64,000 nucleotides of DNA from Clostridium pasteurianum DSM 525 = ATCC 6013 (GTDB lineage Bacteria > Bacillota > Clostridia > Clostridiales > Clostridiaceae). Below the pieces are notes generated by a model. That model made no database searches, was not told the origin of the DNA, and worked only from the letters and a program-made list of their open reading frames with translations. Numbering within the stretch: the first letter of the stretch is position 1; each line of letters begins with the position of its first letter. A program made the position numbers and the translations under genes. Of the stretch, positions 3,191 to 16,711 are shown in pieces. The stretch lies in NCBI RefSeq assembly GCF_000807255.1, contig NZ_CP009268.1, positions 310,001 to 374,000 of the forward strand, in the 5' to 3' direction.

Positions 3191-4738
3191 ATGTATACGA
3201 ATGTAGAATGCTTCTATGATGATATTGAAGATAAATGGGATTTGCATTCGAATATTCTTAAAGATTATATATTAGTAAATATAAGTGTGGGACTTACAAG
3301 AAGTAAAGAGATGATAAAAGATGTGGAGGACTTATACAATACAGATAAATTAAAATACTATGATGCCTATAGATCTTCCTCATGTATTAATCATGACATA
3401 ATGTGTCAGGGATCTTTAACTCAGGAAATCCATGCTAGAAAAATGCTAGGAATACTTTTAATTGCAGAGAAAGATAAAACTTTAAGAAATAAAGTCATAA
3501 AATTACTTCGTAAGTACTACTATTTAATTTATCGTGCTGTAAAAAAATGCAGTAATAAAGAGATTATAAAAAGATATCTTGATATGGATGTAGTTGAGAT
3601 ATCTACAGAAAAAAGATTGGATGGTGCAGTATATCTATATTTTGTTATGTACTGTTATACAAAAAAAGTAGATTATAATCATATATCCTTTATTGTAAAT
3701 GATATAAAAAACTATTGTCTATACAGTCCTATGACAACGGATATACATAAAGAGATAGATAATAATTATAAAGAAATACAGGATATTAAGTCCCTGGTAA
3801 AAGAACACTATGGTGAATTTTCTAATTATAAAGATATTTTGTACTGTGAAAATGATGAGGTTATGGATGTAGATGGTATAATAGAAAATATCTTTATGAT
3901 AAATAAAATTGACATTACTCAATTTTTTGATGAATCTGAAGAAATAAATATTGATAATATAATTTTAGCCTGCATAAAATGCGGCAATAAAGATTTAAAA
4001 ACTAAAGATATAATGCAAGGTTTAGTTAATGGAATTTATATTCAGTCTTTTATCAATGAATATAAAAAAGCCAGAGGGACATATTACAAAAATAGCCAGG
4101 AAACGTTATACTTTAAATTAGATACTCTAGAAAAAAAAGTTAATGCTCTTGAAAGTGAACATAAAGAGATGAAGGCCAAAATTGATTCTCTTAGAAGTGA
4201 AAAGGAAGCATTTGACAAAACTTTAAGCAATGAGATAAATAAATTAAATAAAGTTCATAATTCAGAGATATTTGATGTAAAAAAAGATATGAGAATTCTT
4301 GAGCATGAATTAGATAGAGAAAAAGAGTATAGAGCTGAATTAAATAGTTTAAGGGAATATATGTTTCAGGTAAAGAATGAATATGTGCCTATTAAATCAG
4401 ACAAGGACTTAGATTATTATATTAAGGACAAAAATATTCTAATAATAGGTGGTAGTAAATATTGGAGAATGAAGTTTAAAGAAAAGTATGAGCAGATACG
4501 TACTCTAAATGGATTTAATGAAAATTTTGATACAAGCATTTTAAAAAATGTAGATTATGTATTTTTTTATACTGGACTTATGAGTCATTCTACCTATAAT
4601 AAAGCTATGAAAATTATTAGAATCAATCAAATTAAATTTGGATACATTGGAAAGACCAATATGGATCTTGTGGAAGAGGAAATTATTGAAGAGTTGAAAA
4701 AATGTGACATAGGGAGGAAAGCAAATTCATCAGATTAA
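3191..4738 (+). CDS. Coiled-coil protein with C-terminal DUF2325 domain
   Basis: 515 residues. The N-terminal half is helical and has no motif I recognise. A coiled coil rich in Glu and Lys spans about 315-395. The last ~90 residues (KNILIIGGSKYWRMKFKEKY ... VDYVFFYTGLMSHSTYNKAM) match DUF2325, a small Rossmann-like domain of unknown function found in many anaerobes. There is no signal peptide or membrane segment, so it should be cytoplasmic. It starts 27 bases upstream of anfO on the same strand, so co-transcription is likely, which links it by context to the nitrogenase-like genes. The function is unknown. Confidence 0.7.
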   Translation: MYTNVECFYDDIEDKWDLHSNILKDYILVNISVGLTRSKEMIKDVEDLYNTDKLKYYDAYRSSSCINHDIMCQGSLTQEIHARKMLGILLIAEKDKTLRNKVIKLLRKYYYLIYRAVKKCSNKEIIKRYLDMDVVEISTEKRLDGAVYLYFVMYCYTKKVDYNHISFIVNDIKNYCLYSPMTTDIHKEIDNNYKEIQDIKSLVKEHYGEFSNYKDILYCENDEVMDVDGIIENIFMINKIDITQFFDESEEINIDNIILACIKCGNKDLKTKDIMQGLVNGIYIQSFINEYKKARGTYYKNSQETLYFKLDTLEKKVNALESEHKEMKAKIDSLRSEKEAFDKTLSNEINKLNKVHNSEIFDVKKDMRILEHELDREKEYRAELNSLREYMFQVKNEYVPIKSDKDLDYYIKDKNILIIGGSKYWRMKFKEKYEQIRTLNGFNENFDTSILKNVDYVFFYTGLMSHSTYNKAMKIIRINQIKFGYIGKTNMDLVEEEIIEELKKCDIGRKANSSD

Positions 4739-4765: not shown

Positions 4766-5374
4766 ATGGAGATAGCTGTATTTCTAAATGATAAGGGTAA
4801 AACAATATCTTTTAATGAAAGTGGTATATTGAATATATATTCAAATAAAGAAGGAAAATGGGAGGTAATAGGGAAAAAATCCTTTGATATTACTAATATA
4901 GAAGATGAGGATGCACGTTGTGAAAAGATAAAAAATATGGCGGAATCTTTAGGACAATGTAAAGTTATTATAGCTGCAGAGGTTAAAGATGTTTTCTATA
5001 CAATTTTGGATTGTATGGACTTCGATATTTGGACAATCGATGGAGTGCCAGAAGAATTTTTGGAATATGTGTTTAGAATGGAACAAGAAGAGAAAATTGA
5101 AAAAATAAGCAGAGAAAATGCACCTAAACCTGTACAAAAAGGACAAACTTCTAATTATTATATAGATCTTAGAAGTGTTATGGAGGGTAATGAAAAAGTT
5201 AGTTCCAAACAAGTACTTTTACCATTTTTTCAAAGTGTAAAGTTTAAAGAATTAGAGATTTACTGTACTCACGTGCCACGTTGGTTTGAAGATAAATTTA
5301 AAAAATTAAATTTAAGGTTTTATGCTGAGTTTATAAGTGAAGGTCTAGTTAAGATAAAAGTTTATCCTAAGTAA
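4766..5374 (+). CDS. anfO: AnfO-like nitrogenase accessory protein
   Basis: 202 residues. The opening MEIAVFLNDKGKTISFNESG, the central CKVIIAAEVKDVFYTILDC and the end FYAEFISEGLVKIKVYPK fit the AnfO family (PF09582), accessory proteins of iron-only nitrogenase whose exact role is not settled. The ribosome binding site is weak, and translation may depend on the DUF2325 gene just upstream. The stop codon is followed at once by a copy of the hairpin repeat. The nitrogenase-like subunit genes begin 875 bases downstream, so this accessory gene and its presumed targets may be separate transcripts. The family call is by sequence feel; function rests on context. Confidence 0.7.
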   Translation: MEIAVFLNDKGKTISFNESGILNIYSNKEGKWEVIGKKSFDITNIEDEDARCEKIKNMAESLGQCKVIIAAEVKDVFYTILDCMDFDIWTIDGVPEEFLEYVFRMEQEEKIEKISRENAPKPVQKGQTSNYYIDLRSVMEGNEKVSSKQVLLPFFQSVKFKELEIYCTHVPRWFEDKFKKLNLRFYAEFISEGLVKIKVYPK

Positions 5375-5375
5375 A

Positions 5376-5624
5376 ATTTCACCTGACTAACTTGGCGTAA
5401 GTCTCCCACGCACTCTGTACAGCCTTCACACAAAATCAAAAAGAAGATTTTGGTTCTCTACTTGCACTCTGTACAGCGATTCATACCAAATACAAAATAA
5501 ATTTTGTTTTGTCTGCTTGCACGCTGTGAAAGTGGGAGTTCGACGCCAAGTAAGCCATGCATTTGCAGTTCTAAAATTCAGATGGGGTAAAAGAATCCCC
5601 ACCTGAATTAAGAACTTGCTTCAA
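5376..5624 (+). repeat. Modular hairpin repeat, copy 1
   Basis: About 249 bp, starting next to the anfO stop. Outer arms ACTTGGCGT and ACGCCAAGT, and CTCCCAC and GTGGGAG, enclose two small hairpin modules (one around AAAATC/GATTTT, one around ACAAAATAAATTTTGT), each preceded by GCACTCTGTACAGC. A second hairpin follows (ATTCAGATGGGG with CCCCACCTGAAT). Five further copies are at 5943, 14246, 15147, 24434 (reverse) and 44498 (reverse, partial). Confidence 0.85.
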
Positions 5625-5631
5625 AAAAACA

Positions 5632-5808
5632 TTGACAATAGATAGTCAATAAGATAAACTGAAAATCATATAAAACATATATGCAAACGGGGATATAAAT
5701 TAATAGTTTACTAAATAGTATTGTTAATTGCAAAATATGGAAATGATTATTTTCTAACTGGAAAACCGGAGGACAAATATTCTTTATTGAATTTTGTCCT
5801 CCTTTTTT
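5632..5808 (+). ncRNA. Candidate small RNA or attenuated leader between two repeats
   Basis: TTGACA at 5632-5637 and TAAACT at 5655-5660, 17 bases apart, form a plausible promoter. About 100 bases on, GGAGGACAAA (5768-5777) and TTTGTCCTCC (5793-5802) make a strong stem followed by six Ts. No convincing reading frame lies between. It is either a free RNA of about 140 nt or an attenuated leader for the nitrogenase-like operon. I could not match it to a known riboswitch. After it (5809-5942) I see only AT-rich sequence. Confidence 0.45.
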
Positions 5809-5942
5809 AGTTGTAATTTAAATTTTAATCATTATACATAGTTATTTTATACTATTTAAAAACCTGCAATAACATTAGAAAAAAGGATGTGTTGATTATG
5901 AGATTATATTCTACTTTGTGAGATATCATAAAATTACAGTTG

Positions 5943-6186
5943 ATTTCACCTGACTAACTTGGCGTAAGTCTCCCACGCACTCTGTACAGCCCTCACACAA
6001 AATCAAAAAGAAGATTTTGGTTCTCTGCTTGCACTCTGTACAGCGATTCATACCAAATACAAAATAAATTTTGTTTTGTCTGCTTTTCTTCAAGTGGGAG
6101 TTCGATGCCAAGTAAGCCATGCATTTGCAGTTCTAAGATTCAGATGGAGTAAAAGAATCCCCACCTGAATTAAGAACTTGTTTCAA
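5943..6186 (+). repeat. Modular hairpin repeat, copy 2
   Basis: About 244 bp, nearly identical to copy 1 in the same orientation, but the third GCAC-type unit is replaced by TTTTCTTCAA before GTGGGAG. It ends 63 bases before the nitrogenase-like alpha gene, so the promoter of that operon must be in or just after the repeat, or upstream. Confidence 0.85.
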
Positions 6187-6249
6187 TGTAAATATTTGAA
6201 TTAGAGGGTTATAACAGGGTATTAATAGAAAAATGAAGAGGTGATTTAA

Positions 6250-7722
6250 ATGGCAATAAATCTAAATTTACCAGAACTAGATATAAGAGATAAGAGATTA
6301 GGAGCAATCATATCCTATAAGGGCTCTGCACAAGATATTTATGAAAAATCTCTAGATCGTAGTATAAAACCACAGGAAAGAAGTTTTAGCCAGTGTGGAG
6401 CTTGCTCATCTTCCTGTGCTTTTGGAATTGTATCAAATATCATTGGGTCCGTAGTTATAAATCATGCACCAATTGGCTGTGCATCAGATTTCGCTACAGC
6501 GCAGAATAACATTAGAAGAGGATCTGCATTGAGGGGAATAGATGTTGGTAATTTTAAAGCTATAAGTACAAATCTTGAAGAAAAAGATACCATATATGGT
6601 GGATCAGGTAAATTAAGAGAAGCTGTGCTGCTTGCAAAAGAAAGATTTAATCCAAAGGTAATATTTGTAACTGCATCCTGTGCTTCAGGAATTATCGGGG
6701 AAGATTTAGAAAGTTTAACAGATAATTTAAGTAAAGAAACGGGAATTAATGTTGTACCTGTTTATTGTGAAGGATTTAAATCTAAAGTTTGGACAACTGG
6801 TTTTGATGCATCTGGGCATGCAATATTAAGAAAGATAGTTAAAAAGTCTGATAAAAAGACTAATTATATAAATATTATTAATTTCCAGGGAGCTCATGTT
6901 TTTGATGATTTATTGGGAAAACTTGATTTAAAACCAAGATATTTATTCCCATTTTCAACTATTGAAGAAATTGAGAATATATCAGATGCAGTGGCAACAG
7001 CAAATATATGTGAAACTCTAGCTTCATATGTAGCAGCAGCTTTAGAAAGTGAATTTGATGTACCTGAAGTTAGGGCACCTGTTCCAACAGGAATAAAGTG
7101 GACTGACGAATGGTTAAGAGAAATAGGGAGAATGACAAATAAGGAAGAAAGAGTTGAAGAAGTAATAAAGGAAGAACATGAGAAAATTAAGCCCAAATTG
7201 GACTATCTTAGAACAAAACTAAAGGGAAAGAAAATATATATTATGGCTGGAGATGCAATTGTTCAAAGCTATGTAAGTGTTGCTGATTCCCTAGGACTTG
7301 AAGTAATAGGAGCGGTAGCTTTTCACCATGATCAAGCTTATGATAATGATTATCAAGAGCTTAATACAGTAGGGAACATGTTAAAGCATATTGGAGATGT
7401 TGAAAATTATTGTGTAACTAATAAGCAGCCTTATCAATTTACAAATATACTAAAGGAATTTAAACCTGATTTTGTACTTGTAAGGCATCCGGGCATTGCA
7501 GTAGTAATTAATAAATTAGGCATCCCAGCTTTTCATTTAGCTGATCCAAACATGATAATAGGCTATGATGGAGTAATTGCTTTAGGAGAAAAGGTTTATG
7601 AGGCAATAAGAACTCAGAAATATGTTCAGACATTAGCTAAACATTTTGAATCACCATATACGGACTGGTGGTCAAAGCAAGACTCATTTACATTTGCAAA
7701 AGGAGGAAAGCAACTTGGGTAA
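6250..7722 (+). CDS. Nitrogenase-like component 1, alpha-type subunit
   Basis: 490 residues, the size and pattern of NifD/VnfD/NifE-type proteins. Cysteines that could hold a P-cluster-like centre: Cys49/52/56 (SQCGACSSSC), Cys77 (APIGCASD) and Cys144 (TASCASGIIGEDL). Cys254 (NICETLASY) falls where NifD Cys275 binds FeMo-co. The NifD His442 region, GPYHGYDG, reads NMIIGYDG, with Ile437 at the histidine position. So a metal cluster is probable but a classic FeMo-co site is not; NifE-like scaffold proteins and nitrogenase-like reductases also lack this His. GAGGTGATTTAA precedes the ATG. It overlaps the beta-type gene by 8 bases. No nifH is in the window. Confidence 0.8.
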   Translation: MAINLNLPELDIRDKRLGAIISYKGSAQDIYEKSLDRSIKPQERSFSQCGACSSSCAFGIVSNIIGSVVINHAPIGCASDFATAQNNIRRGSALRGIDVGNFKAISTNLEEKDTIYGGSGKLREAVLLAKERFNPKVIFVTASCASGIIGEDLESLTDNLSKETGINVVPVYCEGFKSKVWTTGFDASGHAILRKIVKKSDKKTNYINIINFQGAHVFDDLLGKLDLKPRYLFPFSTIEEIENISDAVATANICETLASYVAAALESEFDVPEVRAPVPTGIKWTDEWLREIGRMTNKEERVEEVIKEEHEKIKPKLDYLRTKLKGKKIYIMAGDAIVQSYVSVADSLGLEVIGAVAFHHDQAYDNDYQELNTVGNMLKHIGDVENYCVTNKQPYQFTNILKEFKPDFVLVRHPGIAVVINKLGIPAFHLADPNMIIGYDGVIALGEKVYEAIRTQKYVQTLAKHFESPYTDWWSKQDSFTFAKGGKQLG

Positions 7723-9073
7723 CGTAATTGAACAACCAAGATATACCTGTGCAATAGGAGCACAACACACAGTTCTTGCAATAAAAGGAGCAGTGCCGGT
7801 TTTACACTGTGGACCTGGCTGCAGTAATAAAGTTTCATTGTATTTAACTACCTCAGCAGGTTATCAAGGGGAAAGTGATTTTGGAGGAACTCACATACCT
7901 TGTACAAATTCATCAGAAAAGGATATAGTTTTTGGTGGGGAGAAGAAACTTGATGAAACAATTGATGGTGCATTAAAGGTAATTAAGGGTAATTTATTTG
8001 TGGTTTTGACAGGATGTACAGCAGATATAGTTGGAGATGATGTTATATCTATAGCTAGTAAATATCAAAGAGAAGGAAAACCGGTTATTAATGCAGAAAC
8101 AGCAGGTTTCAAAGGAAGTAACTACGTAGGTCATGAGCTTGTCATAAAAAGCATAATTGAACAATATATAGGAGACGATAAGCCAAAGGTTAGAAAGGGC
8201 TTAGTAAATGTATTTTCAGTTGTTCCAAATCAAGATCCATTTTGGAGAGGTGACTTAAAGGAAATAAAAAGAATTTTAACTGCCATAGGCTTAGAAGTAA
8301 ATATACTTTTTGGGTATGAGAGTAAGGGTGTTGAAGAGTGGAAGGATATTCCCAATGCGGAATTTAATTTAGTTCTAAACCCATGGGTTGGATTAAAGGC
8401 AGCAAAACTTCTTGAAAGAAAATTTGGAACTAAATTTCTTCATTATCAAGAGTTACCTGTTGGTGCTTCTGCAACTAGTAAATTTTTAAGAACTGTTGGA
8501 GAGTTTGCAAATCTTGATAGAGATAAGGTTGAACAAGTAATAAAGGAAGAGGAATTTTCATTTTATAAATATTTTTTAGATATTGGTGATTTTATAGCTG
8601 AATCAAGAGCGGGATTACCTTTTGAATTGTATACTATTGCTGATTCTGCTTATGCAATAGGTACTAGTAATTTTCTCATTAATGAATTAGGATATGTTCC
8701 TAAGGGCGCTTTTCTAATAGATAATGTTCCACAAAAATATAAAGATAATGTTACTAATATATTTGAAGGAATTCATGAGGAATACAAAGGAAAAGTATTT
8801 TTTGAAACTGACGGTGGATCTATAGAAAAAATAATAAGAAATGACGTAAATATTCCTAGAAAAACCCTCATTTTAGGAAGTACCTGGGAAGATAAGTTAT
8901 CTGAAGATTTAAATGCACCAGTAGTTTATATAAGTAATCCAATTTTAGATAGACTAATTGTAAATAAAACTTACATTGGTTATACTGGGGGATTAAATCT
9001 TATTGAAGAAATTTACTCTTCTATTTTAAGTAATAAGAATTTCAATCAAAGAGTTAACGCTATATCTATATAG
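7715..9073 (+). CDS. Nitrogenase-like component 1, beta-type subunit
   Basis: 452 residues from the TTG at 7715. I chose this start because AGGAGG at 7701-7706 is well spaced from it, and an earlier ATG at 7646 would overlap the alpha gene by 77 bases. Seen: Cys12 (RYTCAIGAQ), Cys32 and Cys36 (HCGPGCSN), Cys63 and Cys101 (LTGCTADIVGDD), the NifK-like pattern for a P-cluster or 4Fe-4S centre shared with the alpha partner. The 8-base overlap implies translational coupling and a heteromeric complex. Substrate unknown; it could be a cofactor-assembly scaffold (NifEN-like) or a nitrogenase-like reductase. Confidence 0.8.
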   Translation: MGNVIEQPRYTCAIGAQHTVLAIKGAVPVLHCGPGCSNKVSLYLTTSAGYQGESDFGGTHIPCTNSSEKDIVFGGEKKLDETIDGALKVIKGNLFVVLTGCTADIVGDDVISIASKYQREGKPVINAETAGFKGSNYVGHELVIKSIIEQYIGDDKPKVRKGLVNVFSVVPNQDPFWRGDLKEIKRILTAIGLEVNILFGYESKGVEEWKDIPNAEFNLVLNPWVGLKAAKLLERKFGTKFLHYQELPVGASATSKFLRTVGEFANLDRDKVEQVIKEEEFSFYKYFLDIGDFIAESRAGLPFELYTIADSAYAIGTSNFLINELGYVPKGAFLIDNVPQKYKDNVTNIFEGIHEEYKGKVFFETDGGSIEKIIRNDVNIPRKTLILGSTWEDKLSEDLNAPVVYISNPILDRLIVNKTYIGYTGGLNLIEEIYSSILSNKNFNQRVNAISI

Positions 9074-9092
9074 ACTAAAGGAGGAATTATTT

Positions 9093-9581
9093 ATGTCTAT
9101 TAAAATTGCTGTAGGAAGCAGTGATGGAAAGATTATTGATCAACATTTTGGCAGTGGAAATAAGTTTTATATATTTGAAGTTTTTGAAGATGGTACTAAT
9201 CAATACCTTGAAAACTTTGATATTAAGGAAGAAGATATAATCAATGCAAGTAAAAAATATAATTCAAAAAAGGTACGTAGTTTAGATGGAGCCCGCAGTG
9301 GAAGTTTTGTTGGAGGATGTGGCAGCAGTTCACAAAGCAGCTGTGGCAGTTCTCAAAGTAGCTGTGGTGGTGGTTCATGCTCTGGAGGACAGGATGATTC
9401 TCAATTAATCGGAAAGATAAGCCTGCTTTCAAAATATGATGCCGTTTTAGTAAATAAAATTGGAAATAGAGCTGAAAAGTTATTAGTGTTCAGTGGCTTA
9501 CATGCTTTTGAAAATGATGGCACAATCGAAGAAGCTTTACCCAAATTATATACTTATTTAAAAAGAACGAAGGCAATATAA
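9093..9581 (+). CDS. NifX/NafY-like Fe-Mo cofactor binding protein with Cys/Ser/Gly/Gln insert
   Basis: 162 residues. The beginning KIAVGSSDGKIIDQHFGSGN and the end DAVLVNKIGNRAEKLLVFSG ... IEEALPKLYTYL are the two halves of the dinitrogenase iron-molybdenum cofactor domain (PF02579), which carries cofactor precursors. Between them (about residues 73-98) is a low-complexity stretch with repeated SSQSSCG and five cysteines, not usual in this family. AAAGGAGG precedes the ATG, 19 bases after the beta gene, so it is the last gene of the operon. Its presence argues that a metal cofactor is moved to or from the alpha/beta complex. Confidence 0.78.
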   Translation: MSIKIAVGSSDGKIIDQHFGSGNKFYIFEVFEDGTNQYLENFDIKEEDIINASKKYNSKKVRSLDGARSGSFVGGCGSSSQSSCGSSQSSCGGGSCSGGQDDSQLIGKISLLSKYDAVLVNKIGNRAEKLLVFSGLHAFENDGTIEEALPKLYTYLKRTKAI

Positions 9582-9620
9582 TAATCATTAATTTTTAATT
9601 CCAATTATCTTGAATAAAAT

Positions 9621-9670
9621 AAAGTACTGTATTTCAAATGTATATAAATAATTTGAAATACAGTACTTTA
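9621..9670. terminator. Bidirectional terminator between nifX-like and lysR
   Basis: AAAGTACTGTATTTCAAAT and ATTTGAAATACAGTACTTT form a perfect 19-bp stem with an 11-base loop. The genes on both sides run towards it. Confidence 0.85.
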
Positions 9671-9755
9671 TTAATATTTATTTTTATGATTCAATTCGAA
9701 ATCTATACAATAATTTGGAAATTTTTAATTAATCTTATTTGAATAATTTGCACAG

Positions 9756-10631
9756 TTAGTTATCATAAAAAGTATCTAAAAAATTTTTTGCAGCAGGGGA
9801 AAGATACCCCTCTTTCAGCCAGATAGCAGCTATTTGAGTTCTGAGAGATTTGTTGTCAATTTCTTTGTAAATTAAGTTTGAAGAACCTATGAGTTTAAGA
9901 GAAGATTTTGGAACTAAAGCTATTCCAAGCCCTGCATTAGCCCATAATAGAGAAGTTCTTGCATCTTCATTTTTACAAAATGTATTTGGCTGAAATCCAG
10001 AATTCTCACAGGCATCGCATATGATCTTTTCAAAACGCCTATAAAAAATCAAGGGTTTATCTTTTAACTCATCTATTTTAATAATCACTTCATCATTCCA
10101 ATTGAAATTTTCAGTCATAGCAGCTATCATAGGCTCTTTTGGAAGATAAATATAATTTATACCAGCCGTACTGAAAGGTGTTCTTACAATTGCAATTTCA
10201 ATTATACCTCTGCTTAATATTTCAAGAAGCTTATAAGTATTGCCCTCATGAATTTCAAAACTTACAGAGGGATATTTATCATGAAATCTGTTTAATCTAT
10301 CTGTAAGCAGGGAAGATCCAGAGGATGAAACTGTGCCTATGGATAGCGTTCCATTAAGTCCATTATTGAAGTCTTTAAGTTCATCTATAGTGGTTTTGGT
10401 TAAAGTGAGTATTTGTTTTGCCCGGTTATAGAGCATAAGTCCTGCTGCTGTCAATTTAATATTTCGACTTCCTCTTTCAAGAAGCTTCACACCTAATTCA
10501 TCTTCGAGATTTTTTAATTGATAACTTAAAGGCGGCTGTGCCATATGGAGCTTCTTGGCAGCATTGGTTATTTGCCCTTCTTCCACTATTGTGTAAAAAT
10601 ATTTTAATTGTTTGATATCTATGATAACCAC
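9756..10631 (-). CDS. LysR-family transcriptional regulator
   Basis: 291 residues from the GTG at 10631. The N-terminal winged helix-turn-helix (IDIKQLKYFYTIVEEGQITN, then AAKKLHMAQPPLSYQLK) and a periplasmic-binding-protein-like effector domain are clear. It is divergent from the ABC exporter genes, 136 bases away, so it probably controls them. The start is uncertain: GAGGTGG lies inside the coding sequence and is well placed for an ATA at 10622, where relatives have the Met of MDIKQL; the GTG has only a poor site. The effector is unknown. Confidence 0.85.
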   Translation of the reverse strand: MVIIDIKQLKYFYTIVEEGQITNAAKKLHMAQPPLSYQLKNLEDELGVKLLERGSRNIKLTAAGLMLYNRAKQILTLTKTTIDELKDFNNGLNGTLSIGTVSSSGSSLLTDRLNRFHDKYPSVSFEIHEGNTYKLLEILSRGIIEIAIVRTPFSTAGINYIYLPKEPMIAAMTENFNWNDEVIIKIDELKDKPLIFYRRFEKIICDACENSGFQPNTFCKNEDARTSLLWANAGLGIALVPKSSLKLIGSSNLIYKEIDNKSLRTQIAAIWLKEGYLSPAAKNFLDTFYDN

Positions 10632-14506: not shown

Positions 14507-14977
14507 ATGGAATTTACACACATAAATGATGAAGGAAGAGCTAAAATGGTGGATGTAGGAGAAAAAGCAGAAACAGAAAGGGAAGCTGTTGTAAAGGGAA
14601 GCATATGTATGGAAAGAGAAACCCTTGAAAAAATAAAAGAAGGTACTATAAAAAAAGGAGATGTACTTGCAGTAGCTCAGGTAGCGGGAATAATGGCTGC
14701 CAAGTCCACATCGAGTATTATACCTATGTGTCATCCTATATTTATAACGGGATGTGATATAAATTTCAATTTGGATTTTGAAAACAATAAAGTAGATATT
14801 ATCTGTGTAGTTAGAACTGTGGGTAAAACAGGGGTGGAGATGGAAGCATTCACAGCGGTATCTGCAGCGGCCCTTACCATATATGACATGTGTAAAGCTA
14901 TAGATCGTGGAATGGTAATTAAGGATATAATGCTTATGGAGAAGAGTGGTGGAAAATCCGGAGTTTATAAGAGATAA
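14507..14977 (+). CDS. moaC: Cyclic pyranopterin monophosphate synthase accessory protein
   Basis: 156 residues, normal for MoaC. The motifs [20 protein letters not shown] at the start, [14 protein letters not shown] and [20 protein letters not shown] in the centre, and the final [11 protein letters not shown] are diagnostic. MoaC makes cyclic pyranopterin monophosphate, the first stable Mo-cofactor intermediate, in the cytoplasm. TAGGAGGAG precedes the ATG. It is alone, without moaA or other cofactor genes nearby, but heads the molybdenum-hydroxylase region, which needs Mo cofactor. Confidence 0.95.
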
Positions 14978-14987
14978 CTACAGAATA

Positions 14988-15023
14988 TTTATCATAACAA
15001 TAATTATTTATCATTATGATAAA
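14988..15023. promoter_or_regulatory. TTTATCA/TGATAAA palindromes between moaC and dpaL
   Basis: TTTATCATTATGATAAA (15007-15023) is a perfect inverted repeat with a 3-base centre; TTTATCATAA at 14988-14997 pairs with the same right arm. It could be an operator or a weak terminator (no long T-run). Related sequences occur at 41140-41173. The rest of the 507-base gap 14978-15484 holds repeat copy 4 and about 200 bases of AT-rich leader before dpaL. Confidence 0.4.
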
Positions 15024-15146
15024 TAAAATTGCTAATATCAGTGCTAATATATTGCACATCTATTCAATAAAAATGTTTACTGATTATAATAATAAAACCC
15101 TATAAAGGATAACAAATGTTTAATAAAATCCTTAGTAAAATTTTAT

Positions 15147-15286
15147 TTTAACCTGACTAACTTGGCATAAGTTTCCAATGCACTCTGTACAGCCCTCACA
15201 CAAAATCAAAAAGAAGATTTTGGTTCTCTGCTTTTCTTCAAGTGGGAGTTCGACGCCAAGTAAGCCATGCTCGCAGTTCTAAAATT
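15147..15286 (+). repeat. Modular hairpin repeat, copy 4 (truncated)
   Basis: About 140 bp. It has outer arms ACTTGGCATAAG and GACGCCAAGT, one inner module (AAAATC ... GATTTT) and lacks the second large hairpin: similarity stops after GCAGTTCTAAAATT. Confidence 0.8.
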
Positions 15287-15484
15287 GGCATGAACCTTGC
15301 TATATAAATTATTGTAAGTCTCATTAAACTTATTTTTCTAAGAATAGTTTTTGATTTAAGTTTAAATCTATTAATGGAATAAAATAGATCATTAAAGTGA
15401 TTAGTCATGGAATAAATTTTCTGTGAATAAGATGAAATATGTGATTTGTAGTTATTTATATATTGAAAAGGGGTATAGAATATC

Positions 15485-16711
15485 ATGTCAAATAAAGATC
15501 AAATAAAATGTATATGCAATAAGTCAGCAAGAGGGATACAGGAAAATAAATTTTCAACAGATTTTTTATCTAAAAGTGTGGTGGATGGAGTAAGAAAATT
15601 TCATAAGACTTTACCGAATTATGAGATAACTCCCCTGCATAGTCTTAAAAATTTGGCATCCTATTTGGGAGTAGATGAAATAATGGTTAAAGATGAGTCC
15701 TATAGATTTGGACTTAATGCCTTTAAAGTTTTAGGGGGATCTTACGCTTTAGCTAATTATATATGTAAAAAAATAGGCAAAAGAATAGATCAGGTATCCT
15801 TTCAGGAACTTGTATCAGAAGAAGTTAAGCAAAAGATAGGAGATATAACTTTTGTTACTGCTACTGATGGTAATCACGGCAGAGGGGTTGCATGGATGGC
15901 AAAGAAGCTTGGACAAAAATCTGTTGTATTTATGCCTAAGGGATCATCAAATATAAGACTTGAAAATATAAGAGCAGAAGGAGCAGAAGCAAGCATAACG
16001 GATTTAAACTATGATGATGCTGTAAGACTTGCAAATAAATATGCTGAGGAACATAATGGTGTTATGATTCAAGATACAGCTTGGAAAGGCTATGAAGAGA
16101 TACCAAACTGGATTATGCAGGGTTATACTACAATGATGGATGAAATACTTGAACAGATAAGTGAAATGGGAAAAGAAATGCCAACTCATGTATTTTTACA
16201 GGCAGGTGTAGGTTCCTTTGCAGGTGGAATGCAGGGATATCTTGCAGAAAAGTTCAAAGGGGAAAGACCTATAACAGCTATAGTAGAACCAAATGAAGCA
16301 GCTTGTATATATAAATCAGCTCTTGCTAATGACGGAGAGTCTCATGCTGTAACTGGTGATATGCCTACTATAATGGCAGGACTTGCCTGTGGTGAACCAA
16401 ATATAAATGGATGGAAAATACTAAGAGATTATGGTGATATGTATATTTCCTGTCCTGATTATGTAAGTGCAAGAGGAATGAGAATACTTGGAAATCCACT
16501 AAAGGGAGATCCTAAGGTTGTATCTGGAGAATCAGGAGCAGTGGGACTGGGCATGCTAAGTTTAATACTTGAAGATAAGCATCTAAAGGAAATAGCTGAG
16601 AATTTAAAATTGAATGAAAAATCAAGAGTGCTTGTAATAAGTACTGAAGGAGATACCGATCCTGAAAATTATAGAAGAATAACTTGGGATGGAGTTTGCC
16701 AAAGTAAGTAG
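15485..16711 (+). CDS. dpaL: Diaminopropionate ammonia-lyase (YgeX type)
   Basis: 408 residues, the family length. PLP-dependent fold-type II enzyme: the lysine that binds PLP is Lys81 in RFGLNAFKVLGGSYA; a Gly-rich loop (QAGVGSFAGG) and TATDGNHGRGVAWMA match the family. It splits 2,3-diaminopropionate into pyruvate and two ammonia through 2-aminoacrylate. In E. coli and purinolytic clostridia the gene (ygeX) belongs to the urate/purine breakdown set. AAAGGGG lies upstream of the ATG. The Se-dependent xanthine dehydrogenase follows after 109 bases, and RidA, which clears aminoacrylate/imines, is two genes on. Confidence 0.93.
   Translation: MSNKDQIKCICNKSARGIQENKFSTDFLSKSVVDGVRKFHKTLPNYEITPLHSLKNLASYLGVDEIMVKDESYRFGLNAFKVLGGSYALANYICKKIGKRIDQVSFQELVSEEVKQKIGDITFVTATDGNHGRGVAWMAKKLGQKSVVFMPKGSSNIRLENIRAEGAEASITDLNYDDAVRLANKYAEEHNGVMIQDTAWKGYEEIPNWIMQGYTTMMDEILEQISEMGKEMPTHVFLQAGVGSFAGGMQGYLAEKFKGERPITAIVEPNEAACIYKSALANDGESHAVTGDMPTIMAGLACGEPNINGWKILRDYGDMYISCPDYVSARGMRILGNPLKGDPKVVSGESGAVGLGMLSLILEDKHLKEIAENLKLNEKSRVLVISTEGDTDPENYRRITWDGVCQSK

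Follow-up and report, generated by a model that had tools for sequence, protein, structure and literature searches.

A nitrogenase-like gene pair of Clostridium pasteurianum that probably encodes a Mar-type reductase, its moved cassette and its candidate RNA attenuator

The closest solved relative of the gene pair discussed here is the methylthio-alkane reductase MarDK of Rhodospirillum rubrum (PDB 9fmg and 9d9u, identified via the residue numbering of PMC12552129). As described there, the [Fe8S9C] cluster of MarD is held by Cys270 and His429 and the P-cluster by six cysteines; His429 stands on loop I, unlike the histidine of NifD, the adjoining Arg428 replaces Gly424, and the Arg-His pair was proposed as a possible hallmark of Mar enzymes. 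Related proteins have been linked to sulfur metabolism elsewhere: one discussion ties the ‘green’ class of Dos Santos and colleagues to O-acetylhomoserine (OAH) sulfhydrylase and cysteine synthase (PMC3464626), and another paper notes MarHDK-like genes near MetY and CysK gene clusters (PMC10418091). C. pasteurianum itself is described as having six NifH proteins and Nif, Anf and Vnf systems (PMC5027557). Here we consider 64,000 nucleotides of strain DSM 525 (positions 310001–374000 of the single contig of 4,352,101 bp that was searched; hereafter ‘the window’, numbered from its first letter), in which an alpha gene (6250–7722, + strand) and a beta gene (7715–9073, + strand) stand between anfO and a nifX-like gene. 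A preliminary description had offered two readings of this pair, a cofactor-assembly scaffold or a nitrogenase-like reductase using a distant Fe protein. We consider it likely that alpha and beta form the (DK)2 catalytic part of a reductase of the Mar type, with its cofactor on Cys254 and His413, an organosulfur substrate, and a history as a moved cassette.

By sequence, the closest solved relative of alpha (PF00148, 249 bits) is MarD (9fmg_A, 430 bits; next NifD, 119), and that of beta (452 aa; PF00148, 229 bits) is MarK (9d9u_C, 418 bits; next 78), with pairwise identities of 40% and 44%. Our aligned structure row reproduces the MarD numbering as given in PMC12552129, and two sequence alignments place window Cys254 on MarD Cys270 and Arg412-His413 (loop I) on Arg428-His429. 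All six P-cluster cysteines are present (alpha Cys52, Cys77 and Cys144; beta Cys12, Cys36 and Cys101), and MarD Trp195, Phe199 and His375 are retained as Trp181, Phe185 and His359. Where six candidate cluster cysteines had been listed for alpha, we count eight cysteines, four of which align with MarD cluster ligands. Cys254 and the string NMIIGYDG with Ile437 are read from the sequence just as the preliminary description gave them, but its equation of Ile437 with the FeMo-co ligand His442 is a misalignment: in the same genome that column is Ala in NifD (within ...QLHSYDYNGPYAGF), Met in VnfD and Lys in AnfD, so that it is useless as a test of cofactor binding. Aligned with the solved chain 4wes_A, this NifD shows no difference over the whole aligned length (533 of 537 residues), and as 4WES and 1MIO are C. 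pasteurianum entries the match agrees with the species. In NifD, His442 falls in the motif with HS(W/Y)DY. By sequence and by analogy with MarD, the cofactor histidine of the window alpha would probably be His413 on loop I, not lost. A residue count over 77 alphas of the Mar-like kind covered MarD, 14 from this genome and 62 from relatives (many of them redundant Ruminococcus sequences), with a 208-aa fragment at locus L088 set aside. The Arg-His pair occurs in 72 and the four alpha cysteines in 76, and neither varies within a selected set of 24 that omits the divergent L025, L026 and L029. The alpha at L029 (6839–8233) has Ser at the Cys270 position and Lys-His for Arg-His, and its Phe199 and His375 positions are also altered.

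Phylogenies of both subunits place the pair among Mar-like proteins, separate from NifD/E, VnfD and AnfD (for beta, NifK/N-B, VnfK and AnfK) with support of 100/100, and thus outside the NifE/NifN branch. The larger trees, in one of which thinning of relatives more than 75% identical reduced their number from 62 to 20, hold one NifE and one NifN-B, and leave out BchN/B, CfbD, IsrD and the Endomicrobium enzyme as well as two long-branched items that are both in a smaller tree, L029 and the genome's VnfE/N-like pair. In the smaller tree long branches place the latter alongside the Mar-like group without enclosing it, which makes the test against a VnfEN clade a weak one; this very divergent pair (L023 10845–13702) lies 3′ of the Vnf genes and passes no curated model at the threshold used. 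The window proteins group with those of a sister species (G003), of another genus (G138) and of L038, joined in the alpha tree by L037 (support 100/99 and 99/98), and its neighbours in the tree come from Lachnospiraceae, Treponema and Eggerthellaceae. The true Mar proteins, represented by R. rubrum and by L021a and L030 of this genome, form their own clade (100/100), and the window pair falls outside it. The window alpha scores far under the curated models for nifE (166 bits, cut-off 505), nifD (142 of 654), VNFD (109 of 823) and ANFD (68 of 874), and it combines Cys254, a loop-I Arg-His and a clade separate from Nif, Vnf and Anf, as the broader Mar-like class does. Taken together, sequence comparison makes a reductase of the Mar type, in a clade separate from MarDK, the most likely identity of the pair, and not a NifEN.

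The scaffold half of the preliminary description is thereby disfavoured. A NifEN-like scaffold would mature a cluster for other Mar-like pairs or for nitrogenase and pass it on via the NifX-like protein, a proposal that draws on the NifX-like gene adjoining the pair, on 12 other Mar-like pairs in the genome as potential clients, and on scaffold roles proposed in PMC3464626 for some linked pairs of the class. We regard it as unlikely: besides the trees and the nifE score, the Mar ligand set is retained, the genome encodes a NifE of its own, judged by curated model, as well as a NifN-B-like protein of 934 aa, and MarDK is itself reported to hold [Fe8S9C], so a NifEN step may be unnecessary. AnfO, the other supposed partner, appears to be there by accident (see below). 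Nor do we give much credence to a true methylthio-alkane reductase serving methionine salvage from methylthio-ethanol and similar compounds, even with MarDK as the closest solved proteins and with identical ligands, since the pair lies outside the MarD/MarK clade and MarD Cys73, Gln74 and His194 are substituted.

The setting of the pair is that of a cassette (5624–9678, + strand) comprising leader, alpha, beta and nifX. In the sister species G003, whose alpha is 98% identical, the same leader-alpha-beta-nifX cassette (L122) occupies the place where this genome carries the L026 pair; cassette DNA is 85–95% identical between the two, while the window flanks are 80–83% identical to a G003 site that lacks the cassette (L146). 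There, a DUF2325-AnfO-LysR-ABC region is found without the pair, and genes further along also match the window. The pair of G138 is 91% identical in protein sequence and has no AnfO or NifX beside it. The beta gene starts at a TTG (7715), eight bases 3′ of AGGAGG, and overlaps the alpha stop codon. The NifX-like gene (9093–9581, + strand; PF02579, 39 bits) matches nifX and nifB models at E of about 1e-7, far under their cut-offs, and is retained in the G003 cassette at 79% identity; its product carries a Cys/Gly/Ser-rich insert, CGSSSQSSCGSSQSSCGGGSC, and the sister-species protein is 7 residues shorter and differs at this insert. On its sequence, a role as a carrier of NifB-co type clusters is possible. 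A long terminator-like inverted repeat (9618–9672) marks the cassette end, with a near copy in L122. Such differences between genomes suggest that the pair probably travels from one to another.

AnfO (4766–5374, + strand; PF09582, 194 bits; 119 bits against the NCBIfam anfO cut-off of 129) stands apart from this unit. The order anfO, alpha, beta, nifX-like on the + strand was correctly described, but a single operon including anfO was not: the 875-bp gap between AnfO and alpha holds two copies of a dispersed repeat of ~240 bp (5375–5620 and 5943–6180, both + strand, the second between leader and alpha) and the conserved promoter/terminator leader of the cassette, and the link to AnfO is absent in the sister species. 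Because cassette and AnfO region are separate in G003, AnfO and the pair became neighbours by insertion here or by loss in the sister; judged from these comparisons, AnfO is an accidental neighbour of the pair, nor did AnfO turn up around any of 56 relatives, for some of which the stretch is short. The repeat was scored at 40 places in the genome, from 190 first-look candidates, and window 5935–6130 has no counterpart in the sister cassette. One copy of the repeat also lies directly 5′ of the L021 Mar pair. On the other side of AnfO, a 515-aa protein (3191–4738) with a DUF2325 match under the Pfam cut-off adjoins it here and in G003. A hidden or broken nifH in the gap was ruled out, the gap consisting of repeats and leader. 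The window as a whole lacks nifH, anfG and vnfG, as first described: none of the genome's 15 PF00142 matches falls inside it, and tblastn with the genome's AnfG-like, VnfG-like and NifH proteins found nothing at E 1e-3, with alpha recovered as a control. It might be argued from the different sites in sister species, the missing NifH and NifB and the repeat inserted 5′ of alpha that the pair is a partnerless remnant of a moved cassette with little function; open frames in both genes, retention of every ligand and the 91% identical pair in another genus render this very improbable.

The pair is not alone of its kind in this genome. Fragments included, the genome has 41 PF00148 matches besides the 15 to PF00142, and the search for nifH copies that had been suggested returned six strong NifH, all outside the window, consistent with the reading of a reductase with a distant Fe protein, which also fits the best matches of both subunits to MarD and MarK. 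Curated models pass for NifD, NifE, VnfD and AnfD, and VnfK reaches 844 bits (cut-off 874). We count 13 Mar-like pairs (two each at L021 and L032, one each at L025, L026, L028, L029, L030, L031, L033 and L035, and the window). Not included in this count are an unpaired alpha at L031 and the short pieces found at L027. The two L031 alphas (8315–9781 and 14586–16052) are near-identical (total branch about 0.03), with a beta beside one only. Mar-like pairs of this genome adjoin sulfhydrylase, cysteine synthase, a NifB-like gene and sulfonate-type ABC genes (the latter by eye). The NifH4 cluster (3612–3638 kb; L031 and L032), called nitrogen-fixing in PMC5027557, is, judged from ligands and neighbours, a group of Mar-like pairs set among sulfonate-type transporters, genes for sulfhydrylase and cysteine synthase, and a NifB-like radical SAM gene.

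Genes accompanying relatives are of the same kind. In stretches of unequal length (up to 10 kb a side) around 56 relatives, many from Ruminococcus, NifH occurs in 47, a NifB-like radical SAM protein in 48, a NifX-like protein in 42, an OAH-sulfhydrylase-like (OAHS) protein in 42 and cysteine synthase in 42, with either of the last two in 47; NifH, radical SAM and a sulfhydrylase-like or cysteine synthase gene are found together in 41/56. Transporters beside the window's sister group, all under curated cut-offs, resemble polar-amino-acid systems at three loci, the best match being the cystine type for L039 and L085 and, for L074, the lysine/arginine type ahead of the cystine type; L083 has one like an aliphatic-sulfonate substrate-binding protein. 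A Group IV nitrogenase reducing N2, for which one might cite the Endomicrobium proavitum enzyme reported to fix N2 (by a title cited in PMC11423573; its sequence was not compared), is least credible of all, as the accompanying genes of relatives serve sulfur, the genome already has NifD, VnfD and AnfD, a published figure legend has Mar unable to reduce N2 in vitro, and PMC3464626 judges N2 reduction highly unlikely for the class.

Several observations weigh against a Mar-type organosulfur reductase. The MarD pocket residues Cys73, Gln74 and His194 are replaced by Gly, Ile and Val, a combination common only to the window, G003, G138 and L037 among the 77 Mar-like alphas, and the Arg-His pair is absent from five of these homologues. 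The alpha tree joins true Mar to the wider group of the window (93/96) and the beta tree does not. No NifH, NifB-like or sulfur gene was recognized beside members of the window's own subclade (window, G003, G138, L037 and L038, of which L037 and L038 are short contigs), and many of the OAHS matches in relatives are merely about 32% identical, leaving the exact enzyme unsure. Finally, five of the six NifH are 91–99% alike, too similar for a partner to be chosen by tree.

The operon probably has a switch in its leader. The leader has a promoter-like site, TTGACA-17-TAAACT, at its 5′ side (5632–5660, + strand; 10/12 in a consensus scan), a small hairpin, ACUGG-AAAA-CCGGAGG (5757–5772, + strand; ACTGGAAAACCGGAGG, matching the pattern ACTRGAAAACYRGAGG), whose stem covaries, and a terminator-like hairpin, GGAGGACAAA...TTTTGTCCTCC-TTTTTT (5768–5808, + strand), which shares bases with the former, the end of the small hairpin being its foot. 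The promoter-like site is weak alone, because the scan found 27 sites against 26.1 expected in shuffles; its TTGACA is identical in three aligned orthologous leaders and its -10 in two. The terminator is not among the 3 sites of a simple terminator scan, whose loop limit is 8. The hairpin pattern has 97 matches in 37/206 genomes of the family, including 8 in this genome, and its reversed form has 2; a less strict version with a five-base loop brings 17 further matches here and 19 in G003, with none for the reversed control in 7 genomes searched. Among the 97 matches one stem pair is G-C in 50, A-U in 41, G-U in 6 and never A-C; without the pairing filter (134 contexts) it is A-U in 73, G-C in 50, G-U in 10 and A-C in 1, and the next pair is U-A in 107, U-G in 14, C-G in 13 and never C-A, counts that include related sequences, so that p-values calculated from them are too strong. 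In 93/133 contexts a terminator stem of 8 bp or longer begins in CYRGAGG (10.8% with shuffled downstream sequence), and in 86/133 its start can fall within the arm of the hairpin itself. The residues, the clade, the different site of the cassette and this covariation are all read from sequence.

The element recurs, mostly with different terminator sequences, about 80–500 bp 5′ of several Mar-like alphas. Within this genome it lies within 600 bp of five of the 13 pairs (window, L028, L035, L030 and L025), those at L030 and L025 having no evident terminator and that at L025 one changed loop base. At 30 loci chosen by the pattern only (L154–L183, one per genome for 30 of the 37 genomes; Mar genes assigned by HMM, the rest by eye), the gene 3′ of the element is nitrogenase-like in ten (Mar-like alpha in 5, NifH in 4, NifB-like radical SAM in 1), cysteine synthase in 2, a substrate-binding-type lipoprotein in 7 and of other or unclear kinds in 10, with no open reading frame (ORF) in 1. 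Further elements precede a TatA-like gene (by eye), a heavy-metal ATPase, a nitroreductase and a ROK regulator, so either the regulon is wider than sulfur or our reading of it is incomplete. A tandem array of ten copies, mostly ~42 bp apart and without a 60-aa ORF, lies at 845.7–846.2 kb of the genome (L184 2236–2671), and one of four copies in G003 (L209 1696–1790); both precede a gene for a methionine-rich protein, here with a transposase-like gene (by eye) on the opposite strand in between. Outside the family the element has one match each in 9/372 sampled genomes, with 6 reversed-control matches in 5 of these, and we call it family-bound because matches are near the level of the control.

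Comparison with described RNAs gave no counterpart. With Rfam 15 the leader reaches no gathering score, permissive E-values yielding weak matches far under the cut-offs, and thus no known riboswitch by that database; a SAM riboswitch at L031 has a position that fits the downstream gene (metK by eye) and not the Mar pair. ANTAR targets, as given in PMC3369931, are alike in having a short hairpin beside or overlapping an intrinsic terminator, and differ in having two hairpins with six-base loops bearing A1 and G4, where the leader element has one with an A-rich loop of 4–5 bases, mostly AAAA or AAAAA (by eye; ANTAR models were those in Rfam), so we rejected this candidate; the genome encodes one ANTAR protein. 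Our literature search found no description of the element. Naville and Gautheret (2010) mention an attenuator 5′ of a bacilli sulfonate transporter (PMC2965389). We propose tentatively, as a distinct possibility, that an undescribed RNA attenuator switches a nitrogenase-like sulfur-scavenging regulon of the Clostridiaceae, including this operon, a Mar-type reductase for a new substrate.

A plausible scheme would run as follows. With ATP, a NifH-type Fe protein encoded elsewhere would deliver electrons to a P-cluster on three cysteines of each subunit. From there they would reach an [Fe8S9C] cluster that a NifB-type radical SAM enzyme would build, that the NifX-like protein might carry, and that Cys254 and His413 of alpha would hold. 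As the pocket is unlike that of MarD, the substrate is probably another small organosulfur compound, of which a C-S bond would be cut and the sulfur released for assimilation via the cell's sulfhydrylases. The operon would have arrived as a moved cassette and would probably be switched by transcription attenuation in its leader: in ACYRG-(4–5 base, A-rich loop)-CYRGAGG the 3′ arm would double as the foot of the terminator, and a factor binding the hairpin would therefore allow read-through. The same factor may find a decoy in the tandem hairpin arrays that stand 5′ of the gene for the methionine-rich protein.

If this is right, it bears on how nitrogenase-like proteins are read from sequence. 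The absent His442 of NifD was used earlier to deny that such proteins bind a great iron-sulfur cluster; here its absence would be explained by a ligand on another loop, kept in 72/77 of the relatives examined. A classic nitrogen fixer would then have some 13 probable [Fe8S9C] reductase pairs besides three nitrogenases, a set of naturally varied pockets with which to study what makes a protein direct one and the same cluster to C-S bonds in place of N2. The NifH4 cluster, which PMC5027557 describes as nitrogen-fixing, sits amid sulfur genes, and the shared leader element would, if it is confirmed, offer a way in to regulon and substrates alike.

Set beside the known systems, the pair resembles MarDK in the six P-cluster cysteines and in the equivalents of Cys270, Arg428-His429, Trp195, Phe199 and His375, and differs in the substituted Cys73, Gln74 and His194, in its place outside the Mar clade and in having neither marH nor marB adjoining. 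IsrDK, the isethionate reductase of Rhodobacter capsulatus, is alike as a Group IV system of sulfur assimilation with a radical SAM partner, but IsrD, as described in PMC11423573, keeps one of three P-cluster cysteines and neither cofactor ligand, whereas the window alpha keeps all but the histidine of NifD. The ‘green’ clade of Dos Santos et al. (2012; PMC3464626, with their tree not rebuilt here) has the Cys275 equivalent and the P-cluster cysteines without a NifD-type His442, like the window pair, and occurs as many pairs per genome in Firmicutes, as here, with nine named in Syntrophobotulus versus the 13 that we count. Those authors read the absent His442 as absent ligands, while the structure of MarD places the histidine on another loop, where the window alpha has His413.

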